Assembly (NCBI RefSeq): GCF_013409425.1
Contig: NZ_JACCAC010000001.1
Span: forward strand, 2,294,001-2,358,000
Length of the DNA: 64,000 nt
Direction: 5' to 3'
DNA from: Nocardioides perillae
GTDB lineage: Bacteria > Actinomycetota > Actinomycetes > Propionibacteriales > Nocardioidaceae
The notes under the pieces are model-generated. The model did not search any database, was not told where the DNA came from, and worked only from the letters and a program-made list of their open reading frames with translations. Positions 59,341 to 64,000 of the stretch are shown here, in pieces (position 1 is the stretch's first letter; each line of letters opens with the position of its first letter). Both the position numbers and the translations under genes were made by a program.

Positions 59341-60486
59341 GTGTCCGAGACCGACCGCCGTCCTGCCGCGCGACGCCCCCCGGGCACCTTCCGGATCGGC
59401 AGCGTCGCGGGCAGCGACGTCCTGGTCTCCTCCTCGTGGTTCCTCGTCGCTGCGCTGATCGCGGTCGTCGTCGCGCCGCGGGTGGAGCAGGTGCAGCCCG
59501 GGCTCGGCGCCTGGAAGTACGTCGCGGGCGTGGTCTTCGCGGTCGTCCTCTACGGCTCGGTGCTGCTGCACGAGGCCTCGCACGCCGTGGTGGCCAAGCG
59601 GCTCGGCTTCCCGGTCACCTCGATCACCCTGCACTTCCTCGGCGGGATGACGGCCGTCGAGGGCGAGGCGCGGCGCCCGCGCGAGGAGTTCTGGATCGCG
59701 GTGGTGGGGCCCCTGGCCTCGATCGCCGTCGGCGCCGCAGCCGTCGGGCTCTGGTTCGTCACGCCCGACGGGCTGCTCAAGCTGGCGGTCGAGGGCCTCG
59801 CCGGCGCCAACCTGCTCGTCGGCGTGCTCAACCTCGTGCCCGGCCTGCCGCTCGACGGCGGCCGGGTCCTCAAGGCGGGCGTGTGGAGCCTCACCGGCAG
59901 CCCGCACCGCGGCACGCTCGCCGCCGGGTGGGGTGGCCGAGCCGCCGCGGTCCTCGTGCTGCTGTGGCCCCTCGCGCAGGAGCGGTTCCTCGGCGTGCCT
60001 CCCGAGCTGCTCGACTTCGTCCTCGCCTTCGTGGTGGGACTCTTCCTCTGGACCGCCGCCGGCGCGGCGATGGCCTCGGCGCGGGTGCGCAGCCGCCTGC
60101 CCGCGCTCGTGGCCCGCGAGCTGGCCCGCCGCACCGTCAGCGTCCCCGCCGACCTGCCGCTGGCCGAGGCGGTGCGGCGGGCCCAGGAGCAGCGGGCCGG
60201 CAGCATCGTCACCCTCGACCCCGACGGGCGGCCGGTGGGCCTCGTCAACGAGGCCGCGGTGCTCGCCACGCCCGAGGAGCGGCGGCCGTGGCTGCCGGTC
60301 TCCGCGGTGGCCCGCACGCTCGACGACGACCTCCGGCTGCCGGTGGGTCTCGCCGGCGAGCAGCTCGTGCTGGCGCTCGGTCGACGCCCCGCGCCGGAGT
60401 ACCTCCTCGTGCACGACGACGGCTCCCTCTACGGCGTGCTGACCACGGCCGACGTCGATGGCGCCTTCCGGGCGGCCCGCCACTAG
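59341..60486 (+). CDS. Site-2 protease family (M50) with CBS-like domain
   Basis: A 381-residue intramembrane metalloprotease. Zinc motif HEASH in VLLHEASHAVVAKRLGFPV; second site NLVPGLPLDGGRVLKAG; about six transmembrane helices in residues 30-240. The C-terminal part (about 255-381) has CBS-like halves (AGSIVTLDPDGRPVGLVNEAAV; EYLLVHDDGSLYGVLTTADV), perhaps sensing nucleotides. Such proteins cut membrane-anchored regulators; target unknown. GTG at 59341 has TAGCCT 6 nt upstream. Stop TAG 60484-60486 is shared with the next gene's TAGGGT. Confidence 0.92.
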   Translation: MSETDRRPAARRPPGTFRIGSVAGSDVLVSSSWFLVAALIAVVVAPRVEQVQPGLGAWKYVAGVVFAVVLYGSVLLHEASHAVVAKRLGFPVTSITLHFLGGMTAVEGEARRPREEFWIAVVGPLASIAVGAAAVGLWFVTPDGLLKLAVEGLAGANLLVGVLNLVPGLPLDGGRVLKAGVWSLTGSPHRGTLAAGWGGRAAAVLVLLWPLAQERFLGVPPELLDFVLAFVVGLFLWTAAGAAMASARVRSRLPALVARELARRTVSVPADLPLAEAVRRAQEQRAGSIVTLDPDGRPVGLVNEAAVLATPEERRPWLPVSAVARTLDDDLRLPVGLAGEQLVLALGRRPAPEYLLVHDDGSLYGVLTTADVDGAFRAARH

Positions 60487-60496
60487 GGTCTCGGCC

Positions 60497-61495
60497 ATGC
60501 CGGACCCCTCCGACGACCTCGACCCCAGCGCCACCAGCACCCCCTCGTCCGCCCTCGGCGAGGTGCCCCCCGAGGCCTGGGGCGGCGTGCAGCGCGGACC
60601 GCTCCGCGAGGGCGAGTGGGTGCGGCTGACCGACAGCAAGGGACGGCGGCACAACCTCGAGCTCGTCGCCGGCAAGCGGTTCTTCTCCAACCGCGGCCAC
60701 CTCGAGCACGACGACCTGATCGGGCGCGAGGAGGGCTTCACCGTCACCTCGTCCGCCGGGGGCACCTACCTCGTCTTCCGACCGCTGCTGGCGGAGTTCG
60801 TCGTCTCGATGCCGCGGGGCGCGGCGGTGGTCTACCCCAAGGACGCCGCGCAGATCGTCGCGATGGCCGACGTCTTCCCCGGCGCGACCGTGGTCGAGGC
60901 CGGTGTCGGGTCGGGCGCGCTGACCTGCTCGCTGCTGCGCGCCGTCGGCCCGCACGGCCGGGTGCTGTCGTGGGAGAGGCGCGAGGAGTTCGCCGACGTC
61001 GCCCGGCGCAACGTGCGGCAGTTCTTCGGCGGGGACCACCCCGCCTGGACCCTCCACCTGGGCGACCTCGCCGAAGGCCTCGTCTCGTCCGGCGAGCGCG
61101 CCGACCGCATCGTGCTCGACATGCTCGCCCCGTGGGAGTGCGTGCCCGCGGTCGCCGACGCCCTCGTGCCCGGCGGCATCGTCTGCGCGTACGTCGCCAC
61201 CACCACCCAGCTGAGCCGGGTCGTCGAGACGCTGCGCGCCCACGGCGGCTTCACCGAGCCGCAGCCGTGGGAGTCGCTCGTGCGCGACTGGCACGTCGAG
61301 GGACTCGCGGTGCGCCCGGGCCACAAGATGATCGGCCACACGGCCTTCCTGGTCACCGCCCGCCGGATGGCGCCCGGGGAGCGCGCGCCCCGCAAGTCGC
61401 GGCGTCCCGCACCCGGTGCGTACGGCGTGGACTACTCCGGTCCGCGCCCCGACTGGCTGCCCCCGCAGTCGGCCGAGGAGCAGCTCGACGGGTAG
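60497..61495 (+). CDS. trmI: tRNA (adenine-58-N1)-methyltransferase TrmI
   Basis: A 332-residue class I SAM methyltransferase forming m1A58 in tRNA. An N-terminal beta-domain (LREGEWVRLTDSKGRRHNLELVAGKRFF) precedes the SAM fold: VVEAGVGSGALTCSLLRAVG (motif I), DRIVLDMLAPWECVPAVADAL (catalytic Asp), GHKMIGHTAFLVTARRM near the end. The first about 30 residues are disordered. It is the usual neighbour of arc in actinobacteria. ATG at 60497 has TAGGGT (60484-60489) 7 nt upstream. Confidence 0.95.
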   Translation: MPDPSDDLDPSATSTPSSALGEVPPEAWGGVQRGPLREGEWVRLTDSKGRRHNLELVAGKRFFSNRGHLEHDDLIGREEGFTVTSSAGGTYLVFRPLLAEFVVSMPRGAAVVYPKDAAQIVAMADVFPGATVVEAGVGSGALTCSLLRAVGPHGRVLSWERREEFADVARRNVRQFFGGDHPAWTLHLGDLAEGLVSSGERADRIVLDMLAPWECVPAVADALVPGGIVCAYVATTTQLSRVVETLRAHGGFTEPQPWESLVRDWHVEGLAVRPGHKMIGHTAFLVTARRMAPGERAPRKSRRPAPGAYGVDYSGPRPDWLPPQSAEEQLDG

Positions 61496-61559: not shown

Positions 61560-63326
61560 ATGTCGACGTACGACGGTGCGGGGCACGGCCCGCAGGAGCT
61601 GCAGGACCAGGTGCGCTACCTCGAGGCAGAGGTCGCCGACCTCCGCCGCCGGCTGGGGGAGTCCTCGCGCCCCGTGCCGGGCGCTCACGGCCTCGAGCTG
61701 CGGCTCGCCGACACGCAGCGCTCGCTCGCCGCGGTCACCAGCCAGAACGAGCGCCTCGCCCAGACGCTGCGCGAGGCCCGCGACCAGATCACGCGGCTGA
61801 AGGACGAGGTCGACCGGCTAGCGCAGCCCCCGGCCGGCTTCGGCACCTTCCTCGCCCGCAACGAGGACGACTCGGTGGACGTCTTCACCGGCGGGCGCAA
61901 GCTGCGGGTCAACGTCAGCCCCACCGTCGACCTCGACACCCTGCGCCGCGGCCAGGAGGTCATGCTCAACGAGGCCCTCAACGTCGTCGCCGCGCTCGAC
62001 TTCGAGCAGGTCGGCGAGGTCGTGATGCTCAAGGAGGTCCTCGCCGACGGCGACCGCGTCCTGGTCATCGCCAACGCCGACGAGGAGCGCGTGGTGCGCA
62101 TCGCCGAGCCGCTGCGCGACGACGTGCTGCGCGCCGGCGACTCGCTGCTGCTCGACTCCCGCGCCGGCTACGTCTACGAGAAGGTCCCGAAGTCGGAGGT
62201 CGAGGAGCTGGTCCTCGAGGAGGTCCCCGACATCGCCTACGAGTCGATCGGCGGCCTCGCCGGTCAGATCGACCTGATCCGCGACGCCGTCGAGCTGCCC
62301 TACCTCCACCCCGAGATGTTCCAGGAGCACCAGCTCAAGCCCCCGAAGGGCGTGCTCCTCTACGGCCCGCCGGGCTGCGGCAAGACGCTCATCGCGAAGG
62401 CGGTCGCCAACTCGCTCGCCAAGAAGGTCGCGGCCCGCACCGGCAGCACCGGGCAGCCGCACGAGGCCCGCGCGTACTTCTTGAACATCAAGGGCCCCGA
62501 GCTGCTCAACAAGTACGTCGGCGAGACCGAGCGGCACATCCGCCTGGTCTTCCAGCGGGCGCGCGAGAAGGCCAGCATGGGCACCCCGGTGATCGTCTTC
62601 TTCGACGAGATGGACTCGCTCTTCCGCACCCGCGGGTCGGGGGTCTCCTCCGACGTCGAGAACACCATCGTCCCGCAGCTGCTCAGCGAGATCGACGGCG
62701 TCGAGACCCTCGAGAACGTGCTCGTCATCGGCGCGTCGAACCGCGAGGACATGATCGACCCCGCGATCCTGCGACCGGGCCGCCTCGACGTGAAGATCAA
62801 GATCGAGCGCCCCGACGCCGAGTCCGCGCGCGACATCTTCTCGAAGTACCTCGTGCCGAGCCTGCCGCTGCACGCCGACGACCTCGCCGAGTTCGGCGGC
62901 GACCGGGAGGCGACCGTCGCCGGGATGATCCGCGCCACGGTCGAGCGGATGTACTCCGAGACCGAGGACAACCGCTTCCTCGAGGTCACCTACGCCAACG
63001 GCGACAAGGAGGTCCTCTACTTCAAGGACTTCAACTCCGGCGCGATGATCCAGAACATCGTCGACCGCGCGAAGAAGATGGCGATCAAGGACCTCCTCGA
63101 CCACGACCAGAAGGGTCTGCGCGTGCAGCACCTGCTGCAGGCGTGCGTCGACGAGTTCAAGGAGAACGAGGACCTCCCCAACACCACCAACCCCGACGAC
63201 TGGGCCCGCATCTCCGGCAAGAAGGGCGAGCGGATCGTCTTCATCCGCACGCTGATCACCGGCAAGCAGGGCACCGAGCCGGGCCGCTCCATCGACACCG
63301 TCGCCAACACCGGTCAGTACCTCTGA
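61560..63326 (+). CDS. arc: Proteasome-associated AAA ATPase ARC/Mpa
   Basis: A 588-residue ATPase unfolding pupylated proteins for the 20S proteasome. N-terminal coiled coil (about residues 12-80; [19 protein letters not shown]) that captures Pup, tandem OB domains (about 90-230), and an AAA module: Walker [14 protein letters not shown], Walker [17 protein letters not shown], sensor [18 protein letters not shown]. It ends GQYL, the gate-opening tail. ATG has AGGAGGTG (61547-61554) upstream, and TAGGGT at 61530-61535 fits a leadered promoter. Confidence 0.97.
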
Positions 63327-63351
63327 CCGGCCGATCCCCTCAGGAGTCCCC

Positions 63352-63429
63352 GTGGTCCGCATCCTCGTCATCGTCGTGCTGGTGCTCGTCGCGATCTACG
63401 TCGCCCGGATGGTGCTCGCCAAGCGGTGA
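63352..63429 (+). CDS. 25-residue single-span membrane miniprotein
   Basis: A small ORF between arc and dop encoding VVRILVIVVLVLVAIYVAR then MVLAKR: a single hydrophobic helix flanked by Arg at position 3 and Lys-Arg at the end, as expected for a membrane-spanning peptide. GTG at 63352 is preceded by AGGAG (63342-63346) at exactly 5 nt. It starts 25 nt after the arc stop and ends 25 nt before dop. No relative known to me. It is shorter than common gene-prediction limits. Confidence 0.6.
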   Translation: MVRILVIVVLVLVAIYVARMVLAKR

Positions 63430-63454
63430 CCGGCCCCGTGGGTAGGCTCGCCGC

Positions 63455-64000
63455 ATGAGCGTGCGCCGGGTGATGGGCGTCGAGGTGGAGTACGGCATCT
63501 CGGTGCAGGGGCAGCCCCAGGCCAACCCGATGGTGGCCTCGTCCCAGGTCGTCAACGCCTACGCCTCCGCGACGCTGCGCGCGCGCCGGGCGCGGTGGGA
63601 CTTCGAGGAGGAGTCCCCGCTGCGCGACGCGCGGGGCTACGACGTCTCGCGCCAGGTCGCCGACCCCTCGCAGCTCACCGACGAGGACCTCGGCCTAGCC
63701 AACGTCATCCTCACCAACGGCGCGCGGCTCTACGTCGACCACGCCCACCCGGAGTACTCCACGCCCGAGGTCGTCACCCCGCGCGACGTGGTGCTGTGGG
63801 ACAAGGCCGGCGAGCAGGTGATGCACGACGCCGCGGTGCGGGCCGCCCAGCTGCCCGGTGGCCAGCAGATCGCGCTCTACAAGAACAACACCGACGGCAA
63901 GGGCGCCTCCTACGGCGCGCACGAGAACTACCTGATGCGCCGCTCCACCCCGTTCGCCGACATCGTGCGCCACCTGACGCCGTTCTTCGTCAGTCGCCAG
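63455..64000 (+). CDS. dop: Depupylase/deamidase Dop (3' end outside window)
   Basis: First 182 residues of Dop, the glutamine-synthetase-like enzyme that deamidates Pup and removes it from proteins. Visible: [18 protein letters not shown] (ATP/Mg Glu), [41 protein letters not shown] and [21 protein letters not shown], which are characteristic of Dop rather than PafA. ATG at 63455 has TAGGCT (63443-63448) 6 nt upstream. The reading frame is open to the window end. Confidence 0.96.

Follow-up and report, generated by a model that had tools for sequence, protein, structure and literature searches.

From its homologues and from the selection acting on them, we can say with high confidence that a 25-codon open reading frame between arc and dop of Nocardioides perillae is a real protein-coding gene. 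It would encode a membrane microprotein of a gene family whose main home, in the genomes searched, is the arc-dop interval in Nocardioides and its near relatives, and it was apparently overlooked in annotation. The reading we favour as a whole, a real gene residing mainly in this interval whose product, by analogy, assists or regulates a larger membrane protein, is given a probability of roughly 0.55. In the window, by which we mean the whole 64,000-nucleotide stretch of DNA analysed, the relevant features are these:

61560–63326, plus strand: arc, the proteasomal ATPase Mpa/ARC, with Pfam OB and AAA domains and a TGA stop at 63324–63326.
63342–63346, plus strand: Shine-Dalgarno sequence AGGAG, with the five bases TCCCC between it and the GTG.
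63352–63429, plus strand: the 25-codon putative membrane microprotein gene, with a GTG start at 63352–63354 and a TGA stop at 63427–63429, assigned on homologues and selection.
63361–63405, plus strand: predicted membrane helix, codons 4–18 (ILVIVVLVLVAIYVA), from hydropathy.
63443–63448, plus strand: TAGGCT, a -10-like box 6 bases before the dop ATG, in the geometry of the TAGGTT-N6-ATG arrangement of leaderless homologues.
63455–64000, plus strand: 5' part of dop (Pup deamidase/depupylase), with Pfam Pup_ligase on 63455–63999; the gene runs beyond the window.

The product of 63352–63429 is MVRILVIVVLVLVAIYVARMVLAKR. Its gene is separated by 25 bases from the end of arc and by another 25 bases from the dop ATG at 63455, within an arc-dop interval of 128 bases (63327–63454). 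Coordinates, frame, the length of 25 codons and the 5 nt between AGGAG and GTG are all as the initial annotation had given them, and the Pfam domains of arc and dop bear out its view of the flanks as two Pup-proteasome genes; that the frame sits alone in its gap is true of the window and fails as a general rule, as the interval elsewhere holds unrelated genes. The dop transcript in the window is probably leaderless and started from the TAGGCT box, which a sigma-70 consensus scan missed. Boxes resembling it precede dop in several relatives too. Just upstream of arc, 59341–61495 of the window encodes a CBS-domain membrane protease of the M50 type and a tRNA methyltransferase resembling TrmI.

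The family consists of single-helix microproteins of 24–27 residues, the window member having 25. All of 50 distinct peptides carry K or R at residues 2–4 and at least two K/R among the last seven residues, none contains D, E or C, and residues 5–18 are 98% I, L, V, F, M or A. In the window peptide the basic residues are R3 on the N-terminal side of the helix and R19, K24 and R25 on its C-terminal side; the earlier description of a single hydrophobic helix with basic ends agrees both with hydropathy and with the distinct peptides. The frame shows what is expected of a membrane microprotein, namely fewer than about 50 codons with a start signal and what appears to be coding-type selection in its homologues, and a hydrophobic helix of about 15–20 residues that is predicted to insert, and a membrane location of the peptide is very likely. 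According to the positive-inside rule, the basic flank of a membrane helix stays cytoplasmic. Because the larger basic charge lies at the C end (mean K/R of 3.1, against 1.0 at the N end, over the 50 distinct peptides), the C-terminus would be cytoplasmic. Searches of Pfam, NCBIfam, PHROGs, PADLOC, PDB and Rfam returned nothing above a cut-off, and PDB sequences gave no match to the microprotein profile. In the open-licence literature, covered by titles and abstract openings and with most subscription papers outside its scope, we found no description of the peptide or of a Pup-proteasome membrane microprotein.

A search with the single peptide was not strong enough, as 3 of 39 genomes gave a match at E<=10 and one of these lay off-locus within a frame of 2522 residues; profiles were used for this reason. 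Profile A1, built from 14 peptides of arc-dop intervals, was searched in 147 genus genomes and matched 37 of them at E<=0.01, with a single match each; the other 110 gave no match at this threshold. Of the 37 matches, 35 fall within arc-dop in the orientation of the two genes, so that the check proposed earlier, a search of related arc-dop intervals for a conserved short hydrophobic ORF, came out in favour of the gene. Thirty of the 37 came with their loci, all 30 in arc-dop on the same strand; the remaining seven are the window, four further arc-dop matches (G247, G216, G211, G174), a match some 45 bases upstream of dop for which the fetched stretch did not include arc (G195), and one located away from arc-dop (G204). 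The best 25 matches from genomes that had not contributed to the profile all fall in arc-dop. Profile A2, from 21 peptides, was searched in 294 family genomes and matched 77, never more than once per genome at E<=0.01: 59 matches are in arc-dop, 1 is beside dop only and 17 are elsewhere, 16 of these 17 having been checked and the last (G085) assigned because its score and frame are nearly identical to those of G019. At E<=1e-5, 53 of 57 A2 matches are in arc-dop. In the window's own genome a second profile match is absent even at E<=10. A class-wide search of 393 genomes gave 14 matches, of which the 3 outside the family (E 0.003–0.009) were rejected as homologues, being parts of longer proteins.

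That the frame is a chance ORF, an untranslated run of hydrophobic codons in GC-rich intergenic DNA, deserves attention since 25 codons carry little information by themselves. Among 126 arc-dop intervals of at least 20 bases, a profile score of at least 10 bits was reached in 23 on the sense strand, many of which had contributed to the profile, while the nulls, which that does not affect, gave none on the antisense strand and none in 2520 dinucleotide-preserving shuffles. Shuffling destroys codon structure, which makes the antisense strand and the genome-wide searches the harder controls. One of the 23 (L070, 12.6 bits, MLYTIL...) is a doubtful member, its peptide resembling what we take to be another short hydrophobic family. 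The pattern of substitution points the same way as the controls: pN/pS, computed as raw proportions over 23–24 codons, is 0.23 in a group of 5 leadered loci, 0.28 in one of 4 leadered loci and 0.37 in 23 leaderless loci, and in two small groups the pairwise differences at codon positions 1/2/3 number 22/6/50 and 23/3/41, most at the third position and fewest at the second. These close groups are under purifying selection. A ratio near one had been named as grounds for discarding the gene, and the close groups stay well clear of it, whereas the window with its 3 nearest relatives reaches only 0.64 over 24 codons and a broader leadered set of 8 loci 0.82; both of these groups contain diverged pairs whose changes are largely among I, V and L. 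The selection signal thus reads as weak for the window alone, which is the one further point in favour of a chance ORF, and as good for the family. With the clean nulls, the location of all 25 non-seed loci in this interval, and conserved start signals and codon-position pattern, a chance origin is barely credible.

The start signals, claimed as real in the initial annotation, recur in related loci in two forms. Half of the 62 distinct loci (31) carry TAGGTT at a spacing of exactly 6 nt from the ATG, seemingly a -10-like box in the position expected for a leaderless transcript, N. furvisabuli JCM 13813 (L194) being an example with this box; 27 of 62 have a Shine-Dalgarno-like motif under a permissive rule, most leadered homologues showing a purine-rich stretch of this kind upstream of the start, and 4 of 62 have neither. 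Retention of the same peptide design under two initiation modes indicates that the protein rather than the DNA is kept. That small ORFs can be translated without a leader is established for mycobacteria (PMC4633059), and half of the microprotein family seems to resemble the unannotated small ORFs described there, which start at the mRNA 5' end directly after a -10 box. Those proteins come from M. smegmatis and M. tuberculosis, and the window copy differs from them in being leadered, with a Shine-Dalgarno sequence.

The gene is far from universal. We fetched 60 arc-dop stretches of the family, dropped three for want of arc (L038, L049, L067) and, with the window, obtained 58 intervals, a subset of which holds sense-strand ORFs of the same design of about 22–27 residues. 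A profile-scoring microprotein is present in 16 of the 58 (8 of 20 within the genus and 8 of 38 outside it, the doubtful L070 included). Two further intervals contain short hydrophobic ORFs that have basic ends but no profile score, at +3 (L034) and +100 (L045) after arc; these are possibly diverged family members. Of 80 named records, which we assigned to groups by their titles, 8 lacked arc in the stretch and were dropped; the ORF is found in 7 of 15 Nocardioides arc-dop intervals (e.g., N. furvisabuli, N. flavus, N. iriomotensis), in none of 52 from Streptomyces, Streptosporangiaceae, Actinomadura and similar, and in none of the other 5 (Nocardioidaceae, Aeromicrobium, Kribbella). dop itself is present in 118 of 120 family genomes, and the ORF is not conserved wherever arc and dop occur (37/147 genus genomes, 16/58 family intervals, 0/52 outside). 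Mapped on a tree of ARC+Dop with 61 rows, the presence of the ORF takes 11 changes, against a shuffled mean of 14.3 and with 10 of 500 shuffles as low; presence is clustered, only modestly, with repeated loss, gain or relocation. As most genomes give no match, the gene is dispensable.

The interval around it is often rebuilt, with a two-helix protein, a methyltransferase and a YbaK-like gene in many combinations, the latter two labels being our assumption by eye from sequence. The microprotein occurs with several of these combinations and, in the window, L052, L070, L073 and L084, with none of the three. The two-helix protein has 115–122 residues and two predicted membrane helices, and lies directly after arc in L039 (3–362 after arc), L042, L043, L046, L053, L057, L060, L063, L072, L078 and L083; two copies were scanned and hit no Pfam family. 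It was rejected as an obligate partner, since 4 of 58 intervals contain it and lack the microprotein, and in 9 of 58 the reverse holds. Other genera of the family have a similar peptide beside different genes, e.g., MRILLIILVILAIIYVAQLVLKKR in G019. Off-locus peptides of the same design, about 22–30 residues long, were seen at L176, L166 and L174 (G019, G264 and G048, respectively), L167–L169 and L175, L170–L173, and L164; those of L166 and L174 are flanked by an alcohol dehydrogenase-like gene on one side and by the gene of a small membrane protein with several helices on the other. Off-locus copies would be either a moved gene or the product of repeated origin by convergence, the sequence being so short that relocation and convergence cannot be told apart.

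We favour an accessory role because the microprotein is independent of any single neighbour, dispensable, and conserved in its physics more than in its letters. The window copy would be translated from the arc transcript by means of its own Shine-Dalgarno sequence, and the peptide would insert into the cytoplasmic membrane as one helix, its strongly basic C-terminus in the cytoplasm. There it may assist or regulate, as a small partner in the manner of KdpF, CydX or AcrZ, a larger membrane protein whose gene lies elsewhere. Its place between arc and dop may bring co-expression with proteostasis genes, and the gene could function from other places and be lost.

Location suggests a different role: a proteasome anchor is possible, in which the helix would keep ARC, Dop or an adaptor for membrane substrates at the bilayer, where pupylated membrane proteins would then be processed. 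We know of no membrane link of the actinobacterial Pup-proteasome, and a link to ARC or Dop, if true, would to our knowledge be the first. Consistent with such a tether, 59 of 77 family matches stay in arc-dop though the interval is otherwise repeatedly rebuilt, and despite inserted genes the ORF often abuts dop (within 60 nt in 10 of 62 loci, the arc distance there being 25–1788 nt) or follows arc (within 140 nt in 15 of 62), with the window and L052 in both sets. We consider the tether unlikely all the same: most genus genomes are without a match, 17 of 77 family matches lie elsewhere, and other actinobacterial families have arc and dop with no such ORF between them (0/52). The suggestion in the initial annotation that the peptide anchors or modulates the proteasomal ATPase is unsupported, given the 110 of 147 genus genomes without a match despite the near-universal dop of the family, the turnover of unrelated genes in the interval, and the similar peptides off-locus in other genera. 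A bolder and quite unlikely reading is that Nocardioides and close relatives have a dedicated 25-residue tether, produced from the arc-dop locus, which recruits the Pup-proteasome or the depupylase to the cytoplasmic membrane, with relocated copies serving the same pathway. A precedent is provided by the Pup ligases of Plesiocystis and Rhodopirellula, which carry membrane segments (PMC2588565); the likeness lies in a membrane helix in the gene neighbourhood of the Pup pathway, and the difference in that those helices are inserted in the ligase itself whereas here a separate 25-residue peptide would be involved.

A self-contained membrane-active peptide, acting on the bilayer itself as a stress peptide or in the manner of a type I toxin, is highly doubtful. 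Such peptides resemble the microprotein in size, single helix and basic ends, and the gene's frequent absence is compatible with this. Against it, no antisense promoter-like site was detected in 63100–63700 by consensus scans, which miss many promoters, RNA folding of the interval is unremarkable (z +1.2), Rfam holds no family for it, PADLOC and PHROG gave no convincing match, each genome has a single match, and the leaderless starts in half of the family leave no leader for an antisense RNA. We give next to no credence to the idea that the ORF is a leader peptide or a cis-regulatory element through whose translation dop is controlled: the ORF does lie 25 bases from dop in the window and 28–50 bases from it in nine other loci, but a leaderless start box that seems to belong to dop itself lies downstream of the ORF, the leaderless set is mostly 613–731 nt from dop, an opposite-strand methyltransferase gene intervenes in the 4 leaderless loci checked (L039, L042, L053, L072), the constraint resembles protein-level selection, and the RNA is not specially folded.

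What emerges is a testable family of genes so short, at about 25 codons, that they are easily missed by annotation, in one of the best-studied actinobacterial loci for protein degradation; without a link to ARC or Dop, it would still be a clean example of a conserved microprotein maintained under two kinds of start signal, leadered and leaderless. Among named families, DLW-39 (NF038356), a short actinobacterial protein with a hydrophobic N-terminal part, bears some likeness to it, and one homologue has it as its top NCBIfam match (E 0.0077, 16.1 bits). Membership was rejected, the score lying below the 24-bit cut-off and the window peptide giving no match at all; the DLW-39 model also differs in having 38 positions. 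The favoured accessory role has its closest parallels in KdpF, CydX, AcrZ, MgtS and Prli42, bacterial single-helix accessory microproteins with known partners, which are likewise very short, with one hydrophobic helix and no catalytic residues. They differ in that their partners are known, whereas the partner role of the present microprotein is proposed by analogy with them. A further likeness is the sequence plasticity of such a helix, which is reported for CydX (PMC6005532).
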